Shown here: positions 509 to 11,963 of the stretch, piece by piece
How the letters are laid out: every line of letters begins with the position of its first letter
Numbering within the stretch: position 1 is the first letter of the stretch
From: Bartonella sp. CM31XJBT
GTDB taxonomy: Bacteria > Pseudomonadota > Alphaproteobacteria > Rhizobiales > Rhizobiaceae
Direction of reading: 5' to 3'
NCBI RefSeq assembly: GCF_028618555.1
Contig: NZ_JAQITD010000004.1
Location: 1 to 64,000 of the forward strand
DNA: 64,000 nucleotides
Made by a program: the position numbers and the translations under genes
Notes under the pieces: model-generated
Databases searched by the model: none
Seen by the model: the letters and a program-made list of their open reading frames with translations, nothing else
What the model was told of the DNA's origin: nothing

Positions 509-1675
509 ATGGTTCTTATGAACCGTCTTAATGCAAGGGCTGTCGCAACACCCACGAGCTGGCAAATATAATGATGGTGCCGGCTTGTTACTTCATAAGC
601 GTAAAGATGGAGGTGCTCAATGGATTTACCGTTTTACCATTCATGTGCGGCGCCGTGAAATGGGCTTGGGAGCGTTGCAAGATGTTTTTTTAAAACAAGC
701 TCGTGAATTGGCAACTGGGTGGCGGGCTGTTTTACGTGAGGGGCGTGATCCTATTAAAGAACGTGAAAAACAAAAGCGTGAAGCAATAAGCAATCTCCAT
801 TATTTAAAGATATCGCGTTGGATGCTTTTGAAAGTCGTAAAGCTGAATTAAAAAATGATGGTAAAGATGGGGATTGGTTTTTACCATTACGCCTTCATAT
901 TCTGCCCAAATTAGGCTGTCTGCCCGTTTCAGAGATTACACAAACAGAGATACGCAATGTTCTTGCCCCTATTTGGCATACAAAAGCTGGAACTGCTCGA
1001 ACAGCACTGATGCGTCTCAACCTTTGTCTCAAACATGCGGCTGCATTAGGCTTAGATGTTGATTTACAAGTAACAGAAAAAGCACGCGCTCTCTTAGGCA
1101 AACAACGTCATAAAAAACAAAGCTTACCAGCCATGGATTGGAGAGATGTGCCGGCTTTTTATAAAACACTCTGTGAAGCATCAACCATAACACAACTGGC
1201 TTTGCGTTTGCTTATTCTGACAGGCGTTCGTAGCAATCCTTTGCGTCATATTCGTGAAGATCAGATTGAAGATGATATCTGGACAATCCCTGCTGAGAAT
1301 ATGAAAGGCAAGCGTGATGCCACAACAGAGTTTCGCGTGCCCCTATCATCTGAAGCAATAAAAGTAATTGAACAAGCCCGCTGTATCTCTAAAAGTGATT
1401 TCATCTTTTTACTTACCGGTCGTGGTCCTCTTTCACATACGATGATGGCGGCGTATATGAGAAAAAATAAAATTGAAGCTTGTCCCCATGGTTTTCGCTC
1501 TAATTTACGCGATTGGCTAGCAGAAACAACCGATGCCCCTTATGAGGTCGCTGAAACCATTCTAAGTCATACAGTAGGAGGGCAAGTAGAGCGCTCCTAT
1601 CGTCGTACTGACTATCTAGAACAGCGCCGTGTCTATATGGATAAATGGGCGGCTTATGTCACAGGTCAAACCTAA
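509..1675 (+). pseudogene. Phage-type tyrosine integrase, two frameshifts
   Basis: A tyrosine recombinase of the P4/DUF4102 type would catalyse site-specific integration of a mobile element. The start ATG at 509 has an AAGGAG ribosome site 6-7 bases upstream, but the frame is lost near 553-565. The N-terminal DUF4102-like part then reads in a second frame (531-810; GKYNDGAGLLLHKRKDGG). A one-base loss near 808 returns it to the first frame for the core-binding and catalytic parts (about 818-1675). The catalytic set is visible: Arg in TGVRSNPLR, HGFRSNLRDW (His-x-x-Arg) and the Tyr in ERSYRR. The catalytic half is well preserved, so decay is probably recent. Either frameshift could also be a sequencing error. 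An AlpA-like regulator follows, as is usual for such elements. Confidence 0.85.
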
Positions 1676-1882: not shown

Positions 1883-2083
1883 ATGACAGAAAATGATATT
1901 CTTTTAACAGACCGTGAAAGTGCAAAATTGCTTCATATGAGTGTTTCAACATTTCGCCGTCATGTAACTAATGGCTCTCTCCCAAAACCTTTAAAATTTG
2001 GTTTTTTATCGCGTTGGTTACAATCAGATCTTTTGAATGTCATCGAGCAAGCAAAGCAGCAACGTTATAACGACGCGGCATAA
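1883..2083 (+). CDS. AlpA-like helix-turn-helix regulator/excisionase
   Basis: A 66-residue protein with a MerR/AlpA-type winged helix: LLTDRESAKLLHMSVSTF is followed by RRHVTNGSLPKPLKFG and a basic-aromatic wing (SRWLQSDLLNVIEQ). This family binds DNA and in prophage-like elements activates or directs excision by the neighbouring integrase. The ATG has a GAAAGGA ribosome site about 8 bases upstream. It lies on the same strand about 200 bases after the dead integrase and appears intact. Its target may be the local element or one of the related remnants in the window. The family assignment is firm; the role is inferred. Confidence 0.8.
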   Translation: MTENDILLTDRESAKLLHMSVSTFRRHVTNGSLPKPLKFGFLSRWLQSDLLNVIEQAKQQRYNDAA

Positions 2084-2183: not shown

Positions 2184-2586
2184 CTAAGGTTTGCATTCAA
2201 GTTGTTCTGAATGCTTTTTACAATAAGGGCTATTTAAGCGTCTCTCAACACTTCGTTGAGGCGTGATAGAACCACTAAGAGGATACACCGGAATCCTATC
2301 ATCTTGACAATTTTCACACCACTTTCCATTTTCACTTCTATAGTGGAAGCCAGATTGAAGCATACAAGTATGAATTATTGCCCATTCACCGAAACCTAAT
2401 CCACTATTTTCTGTATCGGCATTATAAGGAGTTGGCTTACCACACTCTAACAATGCTTTTGCTACTTCAGTAGAATCTGCATCTGGCTTTTGCCATATAA
2501 CAAAGTATCTTGAAGGAGGCTTTGAGTCACATCCAGCGATACTTAACAGAGCTATACAGCTCCAATAGTTTTAAGATTTTCTTCAT
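2184..2586 (-). pseudogene. Small lipoprotein, frameshifted paralogue of the neighbouring gene
   Basis: This is a second copy of the lipoprotein at 2766-3179. Reading from the ATG at 2586 gives a normal signal start (MKKILKLL), but the frame breaks inside the signal peptide, near 2555. In the shifted frame the lipobox (LLSIAGC) and mature part are intact and match the neighbour: KPPS, W-x-KP-x-AD, ALLECG-x-PTPY, T-x-CM-x-QSGF, SVE/KRRLNSP and a C-terminal ECKP. The first in-frame ATG downstream of the break would give an 89-residue protein without a signal peptide. It looks like an orphan duplicate that lost export through one indel. Function unknown; see the fhaB pseudogene for a possible immunity role. 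Confidence 0.75.
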
Positions 2587-2703
2587 TCTTCCCCTCTTTC
2601 AATGGATTTATTTACGATAAAACAGAGCTCATAAGCTTGTTGATATTTCCTGTCACCGCTGCTTAAAACAACGGTGACCAATATTGAGATGATGGATTGA
2701 GGA

Positions 2704-2747
2704 AACAATCGCGCCATTCCAAGCGAAGGCAAGGATGGCGGATTGTT
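2704..2747. other. Long imperfect hairpin downstream of the lipoprotein gene
   Basis: The arms AACAATC + CGCCATTCC (2704-2720) pair with GGATGGCG + GATTGTT (2733-2747) around a 12-base loop. It lies directly after the stop of the minus-strand lipoprotein gene. No T-run follows on either strand, so it is not a classic intrinsic terminator. It could protect an mRNA 3' end or be part of a repeat. A second, shorter hairpin (GTCACCG/CGGTGAC, 2652-2678) lies next to it. Confidence 0.5.
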
Positions 2748-2765
2748 GATCATCACTAGCAAGAC

Positions 2766-3179
2766 TTAAGGTTTGCATTCAGGTGCATTTTTATATTTTT
2801 TACAAAAAGGGCTGTTTAAGCGCTTCTTGACACTGGGCCTCGGGATCACAGCACCTGGACGACAAATGGGCAAGTTTTCGGCTCTAAAAGTATAACACCA
2901 CCCTCCCGCTCTTGCTACTTCTTCATCTTTATAGCGGAATCCTGATTGAATCATGCAAGCATAAGTTGTTGCTTTTGCATTGATGCTCTGCTTTCTATTT
3001 TCTGGAAATACATCATAAGGCGTTGGCATACCACATTCTAATAATGCTTTTCCTATTTCAGTAAAATCTGCTCCTGGCTTCTCCCAAGCAGTCAAGTATC
3101 CTGAAGGAGGCTTATTAAACTGACATCCAGCGATACTGAATAGAGTTACAGCACTTAATAATTTTAAGGTTTGTTTCAT
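2766..3179 (-). CDS. Small lipoprotein overlapping the fhaB 3' end (candidate immunity protein)
   Basis: A 137-residue precursor with a type II signal peptide: MKQTLKLLSAVTLFSIAGC, lipobox SIAG-C19, so the mature protein should be lipid-anchored in the cell envelope. The mature part has several Cys residues (C49, C75, C95, C104, C128, C135 by approximate count) that may form disulfides, and it ends in ECKP. I recognise no family. Its ATG overlaps the stop of the fhaB reading frame as ATGA, implying translational coupling, and a frameshifted paralogue follows it. A small protein coupled to an adhesin whose C-terminus resembles a hydrolase is the arrangement of contact-dependent toxin/immunity pairs, but this function is an inference. 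The gene itself is intact although its upstream partner is broken. Confidence 0.7.
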   Translation of the reverse strand: MKQTLKLLSAVTLFSIAGCQFNKPPSGYLTAWEKPGADFTEIGKALLECGMPTPYDVFPENRKQSINAKATTYACMIQSGFRYKDEEVARAGGWCYTFRAENLPICRPGAVIPRPSVKKRLNSPFCKKYKNAPECKP

Positions 3180-6100
3180 TTTTTACTCCATGATTTACTT
3201 GAAGGAACTTGTTCACGATGAGATGAGCCATAACGCACGTTACACTTATCGCCCGCGTCTCCAAGACAGGTATGGGGATTTATGGGATCTGAGAACATAT
3301 TCCATGTTTCTTTCCACCAGTTACTACCAGCAGGTATTGTCTCGTAAGTATAGCCATTGCCGCCAATCCATCGGCTTACAAAGTCATATCTATTCCCATC
3401 AAAACCAATAGTGGTTTGTTTGCCATCACTCACATAACCTAACAAACCGGATGCCGCCAAAACATTAGCCGCTGGTCCATAGAAACTGATCGTTGTATTG
3501 CCAGCTACATCATTTACACCTTCTTGTTTGAAAGAATTCATCATATTAAAGCCTGTCAAACTGCCACGACTATGGGCATCAAAATGCAATCCTGTGTTAC
3601 CATAGCGAGACATTATATCTTTTGCTTCTTGTGTGGAATTGGTCAAACCCCAAAAGTTATTTTCCATAAACTTCTGATAGCCCGCGACCAGAAGTTCTGA
3701 GATAGCAGAATCGGCTTGGGGGAACACAACAAAATAAAGCGGTACATTTTTATTCTCCGCATGTTGCTCTGCATAAACAGCAGCTTCATAGGGTGGCGTA
3801 AAAATGCCATTGAGGGACACATGCACCTTGCCATCAGAGCCGGCTTGCAAATGCTGCTTTTCTTCATCCGTTAAATAATGAAACTTAGGGATATTTTGTC
3901 CACGAGCGTCTTCTATAGGCTCTCCATTTGCATCTATTTCATAGATTATATTACCCTTTTCATCACGGTCGACCACGGCGATGGGGTGCTCTTTGATAAA
4001 CATGGTTTTATAGGAATCATCGCTGTATTTAAACCCTTCTTCTAAAAGTTGGGTTGCCATTTCGCGGTTTTCATGGACGATTTGTTCCAGCTTGCCTACA
4101 TCGAGTTGTTGTACACCCTTATGGGCGGTGGCAGTATCACGATTAAGGGAGGCTATGGCTTGTTCCCACGTCTTGCCCTGTCAATGCCTTCTGCCCTGCT
4201 TCATCAGTAATGACAATGGTGCCATTGCTGATAGCAGATTTGGTATATCCTTCCTCTGAATCTTTAGCTTTTGAATGATCTAAGACATTTTTAGCAATGT
4301 TTTTCCCGACACCATATTTGCCCTGATACATCGGACCACCCGCAGAAATGCTTAAACCTTGGCTGCTAGCTTGAGCATGCGCACTGTTGCTGATATCACT
4401 GGTGCTAATGCTTCCTGTGGTCAGGCTGTTTTTATCTGCCGGCGCGGTGCTGGCAATGATGCCTCCGGTCAGCGTTGTTTTATCTTTAACGTTGATCTTA
4501 AAACCGCCATCACCGGCTTTGATGCCTGATTGCTCCACAACACTGTGATAATCGCTAGAGGATTTATCCTTGTTCAAGGAAATATTGGTTGTGGCTGTAC
4601 CATCCTTTTCTCGGCTATTATAACCAATGGAAACAGAGTTTTGCTTGCTGGAACTTTGTCCCGTATCACTGCGGCTGGTAATGGCAAAATCACCCCCTAC
4701 TTCCATTTCTACATGCTCTCCAGAAACCACGGCGCCTGCCAATGTGGTATCCTCTCCACTGCTGGTATGAACAGTGCCAGTACCAATAATATGGCTGTTC
4801 TTGTGATGCACTTCCTCACTGGAACCCTTGCCTTTACCAAAAGAAGCATTCCCCATCCACCCTGTACCACCAACCATAACTATACCCAATATTCATTGAA
4901 GCGCTTTGCGTGTGGTTTTGTGTGCTTTGCGTGTTTTGCGCACTTTCAAAGAGGATATCTTTACCTGCTCCCATGGTGATATTCCCGCTCTGTTCATCAT
5001 TGCTTTGCATCGGGTTTGTACCGGCAATAATATCGGCTCCAACACCATGGATGCTGCCTTTGTGGGCTTGCATATTAACAGCGCGTCCTGCTTCTATTGT
5101 ACCTGTCACCGCAGTAGATGTCTGAACCGATGCCTCCTCCTTCTCTGTCTTAAAGCCCACGGTTACGCTAGCAGAAACATCAGCAATATCACGAATAGAC
5201 TGTTTGTTTCCACCTTTCATCCCATTATAAAGACCTTTGCCTTTGCTATAGAGATCATAGCCTTTTAGACCAGCAATAAGACCATTACCGATTTTGTGTT
5301 TTGTATCCCCATGACCAAAACGTTTGACTGCATCCTTTACATCTTTTACTGTACCAAGAATACCCACATTGACAGAGCCTGTCACACCAGCAAAAGACTT
5401 TTCATGCTTTTCTTTTGCGTTAGAGGTATCATAGCTTTCTGATAGGGTGATATTATTGCCAGCATCAATGTTGACATCACGATCCGCCGAAACAATGGTT
5501 GCTTGTAAATTCACATCATTGCCACCATTGATCTGCACATCTTTGCCCGCCTTGAAATGAGATGGCGTATTGGTATTTTCCCATTGATCGCCCGTATCTT
5601 TAGCGCTTGCAATTCCAACACCTACAGAAGCACCGCTAGGGTTCTTTTCAAACTGAAACCCAAAACCTGTGCGTTCTTCCTTTGAGCTTGCCCTATGACG
5701 ATTGTGACCAGGTGAAACATTCACATCATGGGCTGCCGAAACATGAATATTTTCTTGCGCAGTAAAATCAGAGCCCTCCACGTTCACATCTTTTTTGGTG
5801 GCGGTGATGGTGATATTTTTCCCATTGAGAGAAGAGCCTTGATGCTCAAAACTCTCTTCATTTTCTGTCTTTCCTTCACTCCCGTATATCGACACAAAAC
5901 CCTTGCCTGATCCCACACCAAAACCCGTTTCATGGGTCTCTGAATGGCTTTTATGGTGATCTGTCATGCCATCAATCGTCACACTTTCTCCGCTCACATT
6001 GATATCTTGACCGGAAAGCAGATGAGAAGCAGTGATTGTGGTCTCTTTGTCTGATTGCGTGATAATGTTGCCCGTTGCCCCAAGGATAGAGGAGACCGTT

Positions 6101-6979
6101 GTGGTATGCGATTGAGATGTATCGGAAGATTTCTCATGCAAAAAGCCACTTGAAGACGATTGTGCTTGCTGATCCAAGTGTTCTTGGGCGCCTTTTATGA
6201 CAATCTTTCCCCCAGAGTGAATGGTAATATCCGCTTGTTTCTGTTCTCCTGGTGCTTTCTCTCCTGACGTTTCCTCTGCCTTACCGGCTACGAGCGTCGA
6301 GGCTACAACTTCCGTGTTGTTTCCGGAATCAATGGCAATGCCTTCACCCCCTGTTATGCTTGACCCCACAACTTGGCGCACATCCATCTTGTTATGCTCA
6401 GATTTGCTGCTACTAAACACCCCTCCCTCTTTATGGTACGACATCTCATAATGTAAGCTATCCTCTGCATTATTGATGAGAATATCGTTGCTGGCTTTCA
6501 GCCCCACCTTGCCATCAGCCGCAATGGAACTGCCTGTGATGCTAAGATCATGCGGTTTGCCATCCTGCCCTGCAATGACAGTGGTGTCACCTCCCGATTT
6601 TATCGAAGATCCAACCGCATGAGAAGCTTGCATGTCCACTTTCGTGTTTTTGGTGCGAAGATGATACTCCATCTCATCGTTTCTTACCCCTATTGTTATC
6701 TCCCCTTGGGCGCCAAGAGCAATATTGCCCTTGGCATCTATATCGGAAGCAGCAATATGGATATCTTTTCCAGAGAGAACAGTGGTCTCTTTTTCAGAAC
6801 TTAAATGAGAGCCATTGTGCAAAGCAACATGAGAGGTTTGATCCCCGCGATGGCTATTGGCACTGTTGCGTGTGGCATCAATCGAAACATTCCTCTCAGC
6901 TTGCAAGAGAAGTTTATCCGTTGCTTGAACATCAGAGCCTAAAATATTCAAATCTTTTCCAGAGAGAAGTGGGCTTGAT
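3176..6979 (-). pseudogene. Filamentous haemagglutinin (FhaB/HecA-type), truncated and frameshifted
   Basis: This is the C-terminal part of a two-partner-secretion adhesin, normally exported by an FhaC-type pore. About 700 residues of haemagglutinin repeats (motifs such as AGKDVQINGGNDVNLQAT and DVNIDAGNNITLSES) run from 6951. One extra base near 4868-4876 shifts the frame into 4143-4889. A second indel near 4175-4179 shifts it into the frame that ends at 3176. The last 290 residues contain DAHSRGSL, similar to a lipase nucleophile elbow, preceded by PQADSAISELLVAGYQ and followed by HTC and RYG motifs. The 5' end, including the secretion signal domain, is missing: homology stops near 6979, where integrase debris begins. 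The stop overlaps the lipoprotein ATG. No fhaC partner is in the window. It is probably not expressed as one protein. Confidence 0.85.
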
Positions 6980-6999
6980 GTACTTTGAAAAATATTTAT

Positions 7000-7320
7000 T
7001 TAAAACAAATGTGTGAATACACAACAACAAGTGTATTCCGTTTAGGGCGTTCTGTTTTGCATGAGGAGTATGATCCCATTAAGAAATGCAATAAACAAAA
7101 ACGTAAGACAATGCATCATCTTTATTTTCATTATTTAAAAGATATTGCTCTAAATGCTTTTGAAAATCGTAAAGCTAAATTAAAAGAAGATGATAAAGTT
7201 GGAAACTAGTTTTTCTCTTTGTAACTTTATATTCTTCCCCAATGAGGCTGTATTCCCGTTTCAGAACTTACTCTAACAGATATATGTAGTATGCTCGCTC
7301 TAATCTAGCATATAAAAGTA
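7000..7320 (+). pseudogene. Integrase remnant (copy 4, internal fragment)
   Basis: The translated fragments match the middle of the integrase at 509-1675: SVLHEEYDPIKK, YLKDIALNAFENRKAKLKEDD, then the positions of LHILPKLGCLPVSE in broken frames. It starts next to the truncated end of fhaB and fades out near 7320. Upstream of the match it carries TGTATTCCGTTTAGGGCG, a segment also present in the remnants at 13632 and 32699 but not in the first copy. It has no coding capacity. The rest of 7321-7560 holds nothing I can identify. Confidence 0.8.
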
Positions 7321-7619: not shown

Positions 7620-8510
7620 TTAGAATTTGTAAGCGACACCTACACGGAAGTCATTGGTTTTGTAGTTGAATTCACGTGTATCGTTGGCGAATTTCTTTTT
7701 ACCAAAATCGGAGTAACGGTATTCTGCACGTAAAAGAACGTTGTCGGTCATTGCAAAGTCAACACCGCCGCCAATAGTGAAACCAACCATTGTCTTCGTG
7801 TCATCAGCCCAAGTACCACCAGTCAAATCTATGGCTTGCTTAGCCCCTGCCTCTGGCACTTTTCCATCCCCGTCAGCTTTCTGCTCAACTTTAGCTCTCT
7901 CTCCTTTTCCTGTAACTGATTGAATACCCTGTACCTGCGCATAGGCAATACCACCAGCAACATAAGGCATAATACGGTCAACAGCAGCAAAACCGATACG
8001 AACGCGTGTAGCACCAGACCATTTTTCTTTGTAACTGTGCTTTTCCGTTACCTTGTCACCTATTTCAAACCGTTGCTGATCTTTTAATTCAACCTTAGCT
8101 TTTTCAAGGGCATTATTAAAAAATGCCACATCTTCTTTAGTAAGAGTCAATTCACGGGCTGTTTTTGATTCTTCACGGTCTGCCCAAACTGCATCGGTTT
8201 CAACACCGAGAATGAGACCATTTCCAAGGTCTACGTTAGATCCGGCATAAATCCCACCCATGAAACCAGAAGGACTAGGTGTGTTATCTTTTTTGACAAG
8301 TTCTTTATCTTCTCCTGGAATAGTTACTTTAGTTTTACTCGAAAAGTTACCAACTTGACCACCAAGATAAAAGCCTGTCCAAGAAAACGAAGGGGCTGCT
8401 GCGATAACTGCTGGGGCTGTTTCACGAGGGATCACCACGTCAGCAGCTTGTGCTGCAGAAGCTGAAATTAAAGCGGCAATAGAAGTTGCTATTAAAGATT
8501 TTGTATTCAT
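7620..8510 (-). CDS. hbp: Hemin-binding outer membrane protein, Omp25/Pap31 family
   Basis: A 296-residue outer membrane beta-barrel of the Bartonella Hbp/Pap31 and Brucella Omp25/31 family. The signal peptide (MNTKSLIATSIAALISASAAQA) is cleaved before ADVV. Barrel signatures are SWTGFYLGGQVGNF, SGFMGGIYAGSNVDLGNG, the ATRVRIGFA and MPYVAGGIAYA strands, NVLLRAEYRYSDFGKKKF and a terminal aromatic (VGVAYKF). Family members bind hemin at the surface and some act as adhesins or antigens. Two long stretches, about residues 60-75 and 115-170, differ from the tandem paralogues and fit surface loops. TTAGGAG precedes the ATG by 8 bases. First of four tandem copies, each with its own terminator or promoter block. 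I cannot assign an individual hbp letter. Confidence 0.92.
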   Translation of the reverse strand: MNTKSLIATSIAALISASAAQAADVVIPRETAPAVIAAAPSFSWTGFYLGGQVGNFSSKTKVTIPGEDKELVKKDNTPSPSGFMGGIYAGSNVDLGNGLILGVETDAVWADREESKTARELTLTKEDVAFFNNALEKAKVELKDQQRFEIGDKVTEKHSYKEKWSGATRVRIGFAAVDRIMPYVAGGIAYAQVQGIQSVTGKGERAKVEQKADGDGKVPEAGAKQAIDLTGGTWADDTKTMVGFTIGGGVDFAMTDNVLLRAEYRYSDFGKKKFANDTREFNYKTNDFRVGVAYKF

Positions 8511-8564
8511 AATTTTGCTCCTAAATTAACTACAAAACAACCTTACAAGATTATAAATAGAAAA

Positions 8565-8592
8565 GCTGTAGTAAAAATGTCACAGTCGTACA
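8565..8592 (-). promoter_or_regulatory. Conserved block upstream of hbp (1 of 4)
   Basis: The plus strand reads GCTGTAGTAAAAATG, then TCACAGTCGTACA. The same block stands about 55-90 bases before the start codon of all four tandem hbp genes. Irr binding to an H-box upstream of Bartonella quintana hbp genes is published; whether this block is that element is inference. Confidence 0.5.
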
Positions 8593-8692
8593 AATAAAAG
8601 CCCAGAAAACAGCGATTTTGTAAAAGTCAATATCTTTTGGAAATTTAATTTTTTATTAATACTTTTTATTCATAATTGCACTTTTGATGAAA

Positions 8693-9534
8693 TTAGAACT
8701 TGTAAGCGATACCTACGTGAAAGTCATTGGTTGTGTAGCCTAGTTTAAGGTAATACTTTTTATATTCCTTCTTACCAAAGTCTGAGTAACGGTACTCCGC
8801 ACGAAGCAGAACATGATCTGTCATCGCGAAATCTATACCACCACCAAGGGTGAAACCCTCCATCGTTTTTATTTTATCAAATACTGTAGCAGAAACTTCT
8901 TTACTTGGCTTACCCATTTGCCAATTTTGTTTGTTCCTGAAACTTTACCAACACCCTGTATTTGCGCATAAGCAATACCATCAGCCACATAAGGCATAAT
9001 ACTGTCAGCGACGGAAAAACCAACACGAACCCGTGTTGCACCAGACCATTTTCTTTGAAACCAATGCAATACACTGCTGTGTCACCCTTTTGAAACTTTT
9101 CATTTTCATCCAATGTGACACCAGCATCTTTAAATTCATCATTAAAATCATCAAATTCATCAATCGCAAGAATCTTTGAGACCGTCTTCGTCTCTCCTCA
9201 GTCTGCCCAGACTGCATCGGTTTCAACACTTAGAATGAGGACATTTCAAAGATATACGTTGGAACCTAAAATTAAATACCACCTATGAAACCTGAAGGCT
9301 TAGGTAGTGCATCTTTATCTGAAGTTTTTTTCTTTTGTCTCTAAATCAAATACATAAACTTTGACTTGAAAAGTTGCCAACTTGACCACCAAGATAAAAA
9401 CCTGTCTAAGAAAACGAAAGAGCTATGATAACTGTTGGAGCTTTTTTACGAGGAATGACAATATCAGCAGCTTGTGCCGCAGAAGCTGTAGTCATAGCGA
9501 TAACAAAAGTTGTTACTGAAGATTTTATATTCGT
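8693..9534 (-). pseudogene. hbp: Hemin-binding protein (Omp25/Pap31) pseudogene
   Basis: This second tandem copy is dead in several ways. The start codon is ACG (9532-9534), where the paralogues have ATG, although the GGAGCAAAG ribosome site and signal peptide (NIKSSVTTFVIAMTTASAAQA) remain. The Trp of SWTGFY is a TAG stop (9406-9408). Further indels break the loop region, near 9341 and 9050. The 3' part still encodes the barrel end (GGGIDFAMTDHVLLRAEYRYSDFGKK, then FHVGIAYKF) in one open frame from 8917. It could still serve as donor sequence for recombination with the intact neighbours. Confidence 0.9.
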
Positions 9535-9588
9535 AAACTTTGCTCCTCATTTATTTACGAGCACAGTATTATACGACTACAAAAAAAC

Positions 9589-9613
9589 GCTGTAGTAAAA
9601 TGATACAATCATA
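9589..9613 (-). promoter_or_regulatory. Conserved block upstream of hbp (2 of 4)
   Basis: The plus strand reads GCTGTAGTAAAATGATACA, then ATCATA, 55-79 bases before the dead start codon. It is one base shorter than the other copies. Together with the terminator at 9819 it is the only structure I see in the gap 9535-9872. Confidence 0.5.
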
Positions 9614-9818
9614 GGAAACGAAAGCTGACGCAAGATAAAGTCATTTCATAACTTCACGTTTCACAAGAAATTGTAAATTATGAATACGTATAATTCATTG
9701 ATTTTACCGCGTAATTATTGTCTCTCGTTTATAAAAATCTTTTTAAGGAAATCTGAATAATATCTTTTACTCCCCTAATAAATATAGGATATGTGATAAT
9801 ATAACAACAGAAAAGAAT

Positions 9819-9846
9819 AGAGGCCCTGTCTTTGACAGAGCCTCTT
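9819..9846 (-). terminator. Terminator of the third hbp gene
   Basis: The arms AGAGGCCCTGTC and GACAGAGCCTCT form a hairpin with one wobble around TTT. It lies about 27 bases after the stop of the minus-strand gene at 9873 and is nearly identical to the hairpin at 10989. Confidence 0.75.
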
Positions 9847-9872
9847 GGAAGTTTATTTCGTTGTTGACGAAA

Positions 9873-10700
9873 TTAGAATTTGTATGCAACACCAACACGG
9901 AAATCATTGGTTTTGTAAGCTACTTTATCCCCGTTCTTTACAAATGCTTTTTTACCATAGTCTGAGTAACGATATTCTGCACGCAACAGAACATTGTCTG
10001 TCATTGCAAAGTCAATACCACCACCTACAGTGAAACCAACCATCGTTTTTGATGCATCAGAAACGGTAGCAGTACCAATATCTGCATTATTTTCATCTTT
10101 TACCTTAATCGAATCAACTTTTTGTACCTGTGCATAAGCAATACCACCAGCAACATAAGGCATAATGCGATCAACGGCTGCAAAACCAACACGAACGCGT
10201 GTAGCACCAGACCATTTTGCTTTTAGAGAAACGCTATTCATCTTTTTGCTTGTCGCCGTGATAGAGGTTTTATTTTTTCCTGAAGCATAATTAGGTTTGA
10301 GTTTGTCAAAAGTCTCATCATAACCTGCTCCAACAGTTTCCGCAGCGCGGTCTTTTGATTCTTCGCGGTCTGCCCAGACGGCATCAGTTTCAACACCTAG
10401 AATGAGGCCATTTCCAAGATCCACATTGGAACCTACATAGATACCACCCATGAAACCAGAAGGCTTAGGCATCCAATCTTTGTCACTAATTTTATTGTTC
10501 GTCGCTGAATCGTATACATCAACTTTACTTGAAAAGTTACCAACTTGACCACCGATATAAAAGCCTGTCCAAGAAAATGAAGGGGCTGCTGCGATGACTG
10601 CTGGGGCTGTTTCATGAGGGATGACAACATCAGCAGCTTGTGCTGCAGAAGCTGCTGCTATAGCGATAACAGAAGTTGTTACTAAAGATTTTATATTCAT
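9873..10700 (-). CDS. hbp: Hemin-binding outer membrane protein, Omp25/Pap31 family
   Basis: A 275-residue paralogue of the protein at 7620. I place the start at the ATG at 10700, because TAGGAGCAAAGTTT directly precedes it and the signal peptide MNIKSLVTTSVIAIAAASAAQA then begins normally; a longer frame to 10730 has no ribosome site. Residues just after the signal peptide (ETAPAVIAAAPSFSWTGFY) and the segment SGFMGGIYVGSNVDLGNG are almost identical to the first copy, while the loops (VDVYDSATNNKISDKDW; DRAAETVGAGYDETFDK) are different. This mosaic pattern suggests gene conversion in the barrel and diversification of surface loops. It ends in VGVAYKF. It has its own terminator and upstream block. 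Confidence 0.92.
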   Translation of the reverse strand: MNIKSLVTTSVIAIAAASAAQAADVVIPHETAPAVIAAAPSFSWTGFYIGGQVGNFSSKVDVYDSATNNKISDKDWMPKPSGFMGGIYVGSNVDLGNGLILGVETDAVWADREESKDRAAETVGAGYDETFDKLKPNYASGKNKTSITATSKKMNSVSLKAKWSGATRVRVGFAAVDRIMPYVAGGIAYAQVQKVDSIKVKDENNADIGTATVSDASKTMVGFTVGGGIDFAMTDNVLLRAEYRYSDYGKKAFVKNGDKVAYKTNDFRVGVAYKF

Positions 10701-10756
10701 AAACTTTGCTCCTAATTTATTTATGAGCACAGTGCTACAAGATTACAGAAAGAAAA

Positions 10757-10782
10757 GCTGTAGTAAAAATGATACAGTCACA
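10757..10782 (-). promoter_or_regulatory. Conserved block upstream of hbp (3 of 4)
   Basis: The plus strand reads GCTGTAGTAAAAATGATACA, then GTCACA, 57-82 bases before the ATG at 10700. It is the best-conserved form of the block shared by the four hbp genes. Confidence 0.5.
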
Positions 10783-10847
10783 GAAAATGGAGGGCACATC
10801 CCAGACAAAATTGCTTCATAACTTGATTTTGTACGAGAAACCTAAAG

Positions 10848-10866
10848 ATATATATATATATATATT
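10848..10866. repeat. TA dinucleotide tract
   Basis: About nine to ten uninterrupted TA units lie roughly 150 bases upstream of the hbp start at 10700. The corresponding spacer before the second copy has no such tract. Such tracts can vary in length. It is too far from the start to be an obvious promoter spacer. Otherwise the gap 10701-11037 holds only the upstream block and the next terminator. Confidence 0.6.
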
Positions 10867-10988
10867 ATTGATTTTTAAATGTAATTCTTGTTTGTTGTCT
10901 ATGAATTTTTTTAAGAAAATCTGAATAATATCTTTTCACATCCACAATAAATTATGTATTGTGTGATAATATAGCAACAAAGAATAAC

Positions 10989-11016
10989 AGAGGCTCTGTC
11001 TTTGACAGAGCCTCTT
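10989..11016 (-). terminator. Terminator of the fourth hbp gene
   Basis: A perfect 12-bp stem, AGAGGCTCTGTC/GACAGAGCCTCT, with a TTT loop lies 22 bases after the stop of the minus-strand gene at 11038. It is nearly identical to the hairpin at 9819, which shows that the intergenic region was duplicated together with the gene. Confidence 0.8.
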
Positions 11017-11037
11017 CGTTATTTAACTTACCATCTA

Positions 11038-11871
11038 TTAAAATTTGTAAGCAACACCAACTCGGAAATCATTGGTTTTGTAAGATGTCTCATATTTGTC
11101 ATTTGAGAATTTCTTTTTACCAAAATCAGAGTAACGATATTCCGCACGGACAATAACGTTATTGGTCATTGCTAAATCAACACCAGCACCAAGCGTGTAA
11201 CCAACAAGGGTCTTTGTTTCATCAGACAGAGTACCAGAAGCTATTACTTTATCTGAATCTTTCCCTGTTATTGAAATCAATGCACTATCTTGAAGCTGTG
11301 TATAGGCGATACCACCAGCAACATAAGGCATAATGCGTTCAGCTGCAAAACCAATACGTACACGTGTCGCACCAGCCCACTTTTCTTTAAAAGTGAAACT
11401 GTGGGTTCGTTTATCACCAGGTACAAGCGCATCTTTACCAATATTAATTCCAGATTCTGTTAATATCTTCTTAATATAATTTATGTGATCTGGAGCAATA
11501 ACATATGTTTTTCCTGTCTTCGTGTCATCTTTATTAGACCACATGATATCTGTATCAACACCTAAAATAAGGCCATTGCCGAGATCAACGTTGGAACCTG
11601 CGTAAAGACCACCCATGAAACCAGATAGTTTAGGCAAAAGATCATCAGGTGCTGGAATCTTTTTTCCGTTACTGAGAATATCCATTTTCGTCTTACCCGA
11701 AAAACCACCAATCTGCCCCCCAACATAAAAACCTGTCCAAGAAAAAGTTGGAGCAACAATAACAGGAGCAACAGGTGTTGGACTGGGGGGAACAATAACA
11801 TCTGCTGCTTGAGCTGCTGAAGCTGAAACAAAAGCGAAAGCAGAAGCTGTTATTAACCATTTCATATTCAT
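11038..11871 (-). CDS. hbp: Hemin-binding outer membrane protein, Omp25/Pap31 family
   Basis: A 277-residue member and the most divergent intact copy of the cluster. The ATG at 11871 follows TGGAGAGAAAAT and starts the signal peptide MNMKWLITASAFAFVSASAAQA; the open frame to 11958 has no ribosome site. After cleavage a proline-rich linker (VPPSPTPVAPVIVAPT) leads into SWTGFYVGGQIGGFSGK. The barrel motifs GLYAGSNVDLGNGLILGVDTD, ATRVRIGFA, MPYVAGGIAYTQ, RAEYRYSDFGKKKF and terminal VGVAYKF are all present. The loops at about residues 60-80 and 115-160 are unique. It is the promoter-proximal gene of the tandem array on the minus strand. Confidence 0.9.
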   Translation of the reverse strand: MNMKWLITASAFAFVSASAAQAADVIVPPSPTPVAPVIVAPTFSWTGFYVGGQIGGFSGKTKMDILSNGKKIPAPDDLLPKLSGFMGGLYAGSNVDLGNGLILGVDTDIMWSNKDDTKTGKTYVIAPDHINYIKKILTESGINIGKDALVPGDKRTHSFTFKEKWAGATRVRIGFAAERIMPYVAGGIAYTQLQDSALISITGKDSDKVIASGTLSDETKTLVGYTLGAGVDLAMTNNVIVRAEYRYSDFGKKKFSNDKYETSYKTNDFRVGVAYKF

Positions 11872-11937
11872 ATTTTCTCTCCATAGCTGAATATTTATTT
11901 GAACACACCATTTCATATAGAGCCCCATCTTCAGATA

Positions 11938-11963
11938 TCTGTAGCAAAAATGATACACTTATA
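11938..11963 (-). promoter_or_regulatory. Conserved block upstream of hbp (4 of 4)
   Basis: The plus strand reads TCTGTAGCAAAAATGATACA, then CTTATA, 67-92 bases before the ATG at 11871. It is slightly more divergent and further from the gene than in the other three copies. Confidence 0.45.

Follow-up and report, generated by a model that had tools for sequence, protein, structure and literature searches.

What does a broken filamentous haemagglutinin gene carry at its 3′ end, and why is a small lipoprotein gene joined to it? The question is raised by the window analysed here, the 64,000 nucleotides at positions 1 to 64,000 of contig NZ_JAQITD010000004.1 of Bartonella sp. CM31XJBT (assembly GCF_028618555.1), in which an fhaB remnant ends in a C-terminal tip domain (CT) with a lipoprotein gene directly behind it. 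We consider it probable that the two genes form a displaced toxin/immunity module from a two-partner secretion (TPS) system resembling contact-dependent growth inhibition (CDI), with a lipase-like tip and a lipoprotein antidote, of a kind present as arrays in many Bartonella genomes. The anatomy of the locus fits a CDI-like toxin/immunity array, and the lipase-like tip lies outside Pfam and NCBIfam. The central features are as follows (L, G and C numbers denote loci, genomes and contigs).

3176-4060 (-): CT, tip domain of the FhaB remnant, 294 aa (open reading frame, AlphaFold fold, invariant residues, cutinase match)
3569-3571, 3383-3385 and 3272-3274 (-): codons of the candidate triad Ser164, Asp226 and His263, respectively (alignment invariance and predicted fold)
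2766-3179 (-): lipoprotein, 137 aa, candidate immunity protein (open reading frame, Cys19, linkage to CT, phrog_21928)
2583-2762 (-): spacer, translation INNPPSLPSLGMARLF (equals the leader of orphan CT cassettes in the same genome)
about 2187-2590 (-): second, degenerate lipoprotein copy (tblastn and reading of the sequence)

A preliminary description of this DNA had reported a DAHSRGSL motif at the end of the broken adhesin, an ATGA overlap between the FhaB stop and the start of a small lipoprotein, and a frameshifted second lipoprotein copy downstream, and all three are present: the motif forms residues 162-169 of the open reading frame (ORF) at 3176-4060(-), the four shared nucleotides are 3176-3179, and the second copy aligns over residues 9-137 with 47% identity in one frame (2187-2561, by tblastn), with its signal-peptide start in a different frame as judged by eye. 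By eye, the intact lipoprotein shows a signal peptide and a lipobox whose last residue is Cys19, which is invariant among 47 relatives. The same description suggested that the toxin side had decayed while the lipoprotein stayed intact. The lipoprotein frame is indeed intact, but it is the stalk that is broken and not the tip, the CT frame being open for 334 codons from stop to stop. Locus L067, whose DNA matches window positions 2528-6971 at 92% (blastn), has a single frame of 2667 codons that is open where the locus starts, and a following lipoprotein identical in protein sequence to that of the window; this uninterrupted relative and the frame breaks together indicate that the window holds the 3′ part of fhaB, with a broken stalk and intact CT and lipoprotein frames. 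The similarities to L067 and to L019 (88% over 2567-6971, blastn) both end at 6971, adjoining an integrase remnant at 6985-7209, and because similarity to intact relatives ends there we take the secretion domain to be gone from the window copy, which has haemagglutinin repeats only, with neither a transporter gene nor a TPS domain. With the export part lost, the module probably does no more here than confer immunity or keep cassettes in store.

Neither protein is covered by the common family libraries, with no Pfam or NCBIfam family above its cut-off for the CT or the lipoprotein. Plasmid records contain no match to either in DNA and protein searches, and phage records gave no match in protein searches, although the lipoprotein family corresponds to PHROG 21928 (phrog_21928, function not known); three IMG/VR loci carry this family. 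The lipoprotein model (predicted local distance difference test, pLDDT, 79) matches no PDB chain at E <= 10 in Foldseek, and the sole row against PDB sequences is a shikimate kinase at E 0.21. The translation of the spacer at 2583-2762(-), INNPPSLPSLGMARLF, is the leader found ahead of orphan CT cassettes at L009:8856-9611.

The CT is confidently modelled by AlphaFold as an alpha/beta-hydrolase (pLDDT 92), bearing out the fold that had been suggested from the DAHSRGSL serine, which is a member of a candidate Ser-Asp-His triad. In the model the serine follows strand 5, the acid follows strand 7, and the histidine precedes the last helix, as predicted positions, and Ser164, Asp226 and His263 are invariant in a 32-row Bartonella alignment and in three relatives from other families. 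Lipases, phospholipase A1 and cutinases are among the leading rows of a structure comparison, and a cutinase, aligned at the serine, is the one PDB sequence to match at E <= 0.01. One cysteine, C265, is invariant and another, C273, nearly so. The domain is not the invariant one that the preliminary description had allowed for, the module of the window sharing 34-39% identity with the most distant Bartonella modules. Across 15 long FhaB proteins CT residues 151-290 are the most variable stretch (mean identity 0.48), compared with 0.63-0.74 for stalk blocks, 0.61 for the 50 residues before the CT, 0.60 for CT residues 1-56 and 0.65 for residues 57-150, so that the variation is graded and lies within one fold.

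The linkage of the two genes was followed in 31 Bartonella sources (the window, L009-L034 and L047-L050), a sample of loci selected by CT, which leaves lipoproteins distant from a CT outside it and in which some loci may be near-copies. These contain 80 CT matches and 137 lipoprotein matches. With 15 CT matches set aside (no 3′ end, or shorter than 150 nt), a lipoprotein lies within 60 nt after the CT in 65 of 65 modules, with a 4-nt overlap in 48, a 20-nt gap in 13, other spacings in three and an unaligned lipoprotein start in one; where placed, the gap ranges from -17 to +20 nt. As every one of these modules is followed by the same lipoprotein family, the pairing is more than chance. The family occurs chiefly at CT genes, with 65 of its 137 members paired and the remaining 72 being orphans no more than 6 kb from a CT. 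In scans of 71 Bartonella genomes, with positions taken among the matches listed, the CT was found in 47, the lipoprotein in 51, and both in 46. The sole CT-positive genome without a lipoprotein profile match, G063, was ruled out as a case of a CT lacking its lipoprotein, as the ORF after the CT is a lipoprotein gene interrupted by a stop. Five genomes have the lipoprotein without a CT profile match (G034, G045, G046, G059 and G062); G059 has an apparent CT remnant directly before the lipoprotein, and the contig of G062 begins at the lipoprotein.

Complete loci show where such modules come from. L049 has an ShlB/FhaC-type transporter gene (600 aa; ShlB, POTRA) followed by FhaB (2693 aa), a lipoprotein with an ATGA overlap and, further downstream, repeat-plus-CT and short CT cassettes with a lipoprotein each. 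FhaB proteins of 2713 aa and 2698 aa, both with CT/lipoprotein cassettes, are present in L047 and L048; the L048 transporter occupies two ORFs (by eye), and no transporter was seen on the FhaB strand of the L047 locus examined. Pfam places both a TPS domain and haemagglutinin repeats in the FhaB proteins of L049 and L047. L044, from another family, likewise has a transporter gene next to its FHA gene (two ORFs before it, by eye). A scan of named genomes gave 22 distinct loci, all 22 from Bartonella. The window's own genome (2.35 Mb, 85 contigs), in which the island of the window sits amid repeats, has 12 CT matches and two TPS domains, each near a contig start. Its contig C9 opens with an FhaB frame, truncated where the contig begins, that carries a CT, followed by a lipoprotein, a broken CT, a lipoprotein, a hybrid lipoprotein (see below), a repeat-plus-CT gene (514 aa), a lipoprotein, a CT, a lipoprotein, three more lipoproteins and an integrase; on contig C17 an FhaB frame with CT is followed by two lipoproteins, an AlpA-like gene, an integrase, and phage portal and capsid genes. 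Past the integrase closing a CT array in the same genome lie P22-like portal and phage capsid genes (L010:7417-9998). Among 62 CT modules of at least 450 nt, 29 are fused to a stalk frame and 33 are in short frames (the window CT is counted with the latter, its stalk sitting in other frames), and 16 of these 33 start at CT residue 57-61. The arrays repeatedly contain a shorter lipoprotein of this family, 119 aa long, that has no CT of its own immediately ahead of it (L009:11377-11736, L010:5142-5501, L048:12690-13049, L049:13666-14025 and L049:18701-19060).

Both genes are under purifying selection, with median pairwise ratios of nonsynonymous to synonymous substitution (dN/dS) of 0.325 for the CT (311 comparisons) and 0.305 for the lipoprotein (779 comparisons). 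Distances among CTs and among their lipoproteins are correlated, with r 0.39 over the 41 of 61 pairs used, a value reached by 0 of 2000 permutations, and with r 0.63 within loci (29 comparisons), reached by 35 of 2000 shuffles.

Outside Bartonella the CT is rare, occurring in 4 of 397 non-Bartonella genomes of a phylum sample and being absent from all 15 non-Bartonella genomes of the same family in that sample. A search with alignment A3 gave matches in 7 of 295 genomes of one order, two of them very weak, and in 2 of 78 genomes of another; one of the very weak matches (L059) lies in what we take to be a formate-dehydrogenase-like gene. Of the eight CTs read in other families of the phylum, seven are complete and one is a 3′ fragment (L043, L044, L045, L055, L056, L060, L061 and L062; L046 is cut by a contig end and is left out of the count), and each of the eight is followed at -14 to +11 nt by a small ORF whose start is lipoprotein-like, mostly as judged by eye. 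Of five ORFs that immediately follow the 3′ end of a CT, an automatic lipobox pattern flagged two, the other lipoprotein starts being judged by eye; it further picked out one unrelated ORF and two that come after other tips. Homology of the L043 lipoprotein is clear (G299, E 5.4e-27). A lipoprotein-profile match in G306 was dropped as chance, being a stretch with stops in which no lipoprotein is apparent by eye. Small lipoprotein-like ORFs also stand directly after other FHA-type tips (L045:7625-9242, L063 and L064), of which one has no Pfam tip-domain match and the others are partly CT-like; lipoprotein antidotes may therefore extend beyond the CT toxin.

By analogy, the closest architecture to the Bartonella locus is that of CDI (CdiB/CdiA/CdiI) with orphan pairs. 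In the part of the CDI literature available to us (PMC4927057) these systems likewise have two-partner secretion, a toxin-like tip, a small gene directly downstream, and tandem orphan cdiA-CT/cdiI pairs with integrases, and islands, and the Bartonella-type loci match this in the transporter beside the TpsA gene (L049, L044) and in the immunity-type gene downstream of 65 of 65 CTs. The loci differ in having a predicted lipase-like hydrolase as tip and a lipoprotein as antidote. The closest working parallel, again by analogy and from the portion of the source at hand, would be the lipase effector Tle1 of the type VI secretion system (T6SS) with Tli1: the Tle1-5/Tli effectors are envelope hydrolases with an outer-membrane lipoprotein antidote in the case of Tle1/Tli1 (PMC6099711), although the CT rides on a two-partner-secretion filament rather than a T6SS and the likeness to Tle is by description only. 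In intact relatives a Hec/TpsB transporter would export FhaB, whose C-terminal tip would pass into a neighbouring cell on contact and, as a lipase-like serine hydrolase, attack envelope lipids from the periplasmic side, while the lipoprotein of the overlapping gene, held in the producer's envelope, would bind and block toxin arriving from siblings. Pairs of CT and lipoprotein that have been displaced, together with additional lipoproteins, would gather downstream as a store for recombination and as wider immunity. Periplasmic action is argued from the lipoprotein partner and the conserved CT cysteines. Gene anatomy, linkage and fold thus agree with the TPS toxin/lipoprotein pair of the preliminary description, none of whose three refuting observations was made, and from these we infer contact delivery, a lipid target, toxicity, lipase activity and immunity conferred by the lipoprotein.

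Several observations weigh against a CDI-like lipase toxin with a lipoprotein antidote. All aligned CTs have one fold, diversified, whereas classical CDI swaps unrelated toxins, and the CT model has no PDB match at E <= 0.001 in Foldseek. The Pretoxin-VENN domain, typical though not universal in CDI, is absent from the two long FhaB proteins scanned with Pfam at E <= 0.01, in which only TPS and Fil_haemagg_2 were found, and we therefore write "CDI-like" and not CdiA. No CT lies in the 1.5-kb flanks of the lipoprotein in G034, G045 and G046; outside Bartonella the lipoproteins other than that of L043 have weak homology that is suggestive only (hhalign probability 64 and 50); and the correlation of CT and lipoprotein distances may reflect joint inheritance.

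A different division of labour, in which the CT would act as an esterase or lipase on a mammalian or arthropod host and the lipoprotein would assist folding, export or anchoring instead of serving as antidote, draws on the presumption in the accessible text of PMC2847970 that Bartonella FHA is an adhesin or immunomodulator and on BcpO, a lipoprotein accessory of CDI loci (PMC9086364, seen in part). We regard it as unlikely, since orphan cassettes without secretion parts each retain a lipoprotein and the lipoproteins multiply alone (the 72 orphans), both as expected of immunity genes, and no other immunity candidate lies between CT and lipoprotein. More room is left for a CDI-like toxin with a non-lipid substrate (a peptide, thioester or other ester), its lipoprotein still being the antidote, although this too seems doubtful given the lipases, phospholipase A1 and cutinases among the other leading structural rows and the cutinase as the only PDB sequence match.

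That the arrays represent decaying freight of mobile elements, multiplied along with phage-linked islands and of no present function, would account for the integrase and phage genes adjoining them, as also at the fha-repeats of B. grahamii (PMC2697382, from the part available), and for the many broken copies, the stalk of the window among them. Median dN/dS values near 0.3 for both CT and lipoprotein and FhaB frames of about 2,700 codons with CT in several species make this very improbable. If the CDI-like toxin/immunity interpretation is true, a Bartonella family treated as adhesin in print becomes a testable interbacterial weapon, CDI-like systems gain an enzyme class and a lipoprotein antidote, action in the envelope and not the cytoplasm is predicted, and kin recognition would be useful to bacteria sharing one host cell or one vector gut.

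The arrays also contain a hybrid lipoprotein, in which an antidote-type N-terminal part is joined to a C-terminal part resembling CT residues about 108-155 (e.g. L009:6365-6838, L019:7491-7964, L029:5545-5997, L050:4628-5074 and L012:5053-5502(-)). Matches with E <= 1e-20 come from 35 of the 71 Bartonella genomes, with some copies decayed. Among 48 matches listed, 34 run from residue 1 or 2 to at least residue 146, of which 16 have no stop, 16 have one and two have several; 25 genomes supply the 32 copies that have one stop or none, and the single stop of the C16 hybrid in the window's genome (L012:5053-5502) fits its natural end. The L029 hybrid begins at the CT stop, the position of an antidote. 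A frozen recombination product is the plain reading of the hybrid, although its conservation is hard to reconcile with junk. Its median dN/dS is 0.19, from only four comparisons. We tentatively speculate, with more doubt than confidence, that the whole represents a CDI-like branch that bypasses the target cytoplasm, with one lipase fold diversified in arrays, lipoprotein antidotes, the hybrid, which in one species stands in the antidote position, as a toxin-mimicking, broad-range antidote, and the store kept on phage-linked islands in a genus with a gene transfer agent. A 159-aa ORF with a hybrid-like beginning is present at L068:11262-11741.

The anatomy of the proposed pair, a lipase-like tip with a lipoprotein antidote on a known CDI-like architecture, is well supported. 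Literature searches, covering mostly open-access titles and the beginnings of abstracts, gave among the matches listed no CDI lipase tip with a lipoprotein antidote and no such pair in Bartonella. A 2022 review of CDI effectors, in the text available, has "lipase" zero times and "lipoprotein" once, for BcpO (PMC9086364), and the portions available of PMC6555100 and PMC11630599 describe no lipase-tip/lipoprotein pair. The accessible text of a 2012 survey of polymorphic toxins (PMC3482391) predicts alpha/beta-hydrolases (Tox-ABhydrolase-1/2/3) as toxin tips, gives Imm65, tied to Tox-JAB-1, as the only lipoprotein immunity protein, and leaves Bartonella unmentioned; those hydrolase tips resemble the CT by description, and no profile so named appeared in our Pfam and NCBIfam library scans. 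The cdi genes on B. henselae genomic islands are mentioned in passing (PMC4927057, in part). In two papers on B. grahamii (PMC2697382, PMC2847970), fha/hec repeats are reported together with integrase and phage genes and presumed to encode an adhesin or immunomodulator; the text on the fha-repeats treats them as secretion-system genes and contains "lipoprotein" zero times, with no toxin/immunity reading in its available passages. In a 2013 paper fha/hec appear in a list of secretion systems close to the gene transfer agent (PMC3610622), and a Haemophilus parasuis genome paper reports cdiA arrays with candidate cdiI genes (PMC6211672), both as far as the available text goes.

The remaining features around the fhaB remnant are as follows.

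4143-4889 (-): haemagglutinin-repeat stalk piece, second frame (PF13332)
4834-6951 (-): haemagglutinin-repeat stalk piece, third frame (PF13332)
6985-7209 (+): integrase remnant where the fhaB remnant breaks off on its 5′ side (ORF list, blastn)
531-1675 (+): tyrosine integrase split over two frames, 531-851 and 818-1675 (PF13356, PF22022, PF00589)
1883-2083 (+): small helix-turn-helix gene, presumably AlpA-like (HTH_17 below cut-off; same gene beside the array in L010)

Integrases thus stand on both sides of the fhaB remnant, the split one at 531-1675(+) and the remnant at 6985-7209(+). Beyond the latter, 7620-11958(-) is a cluster of genes and gene fragments for related outer-membrane beta-barrels; positions 7620-8510 match Porin_2 and OMP_b-brl, and several stretches of the cluster match one outer-membrane-protein-like region of L011.
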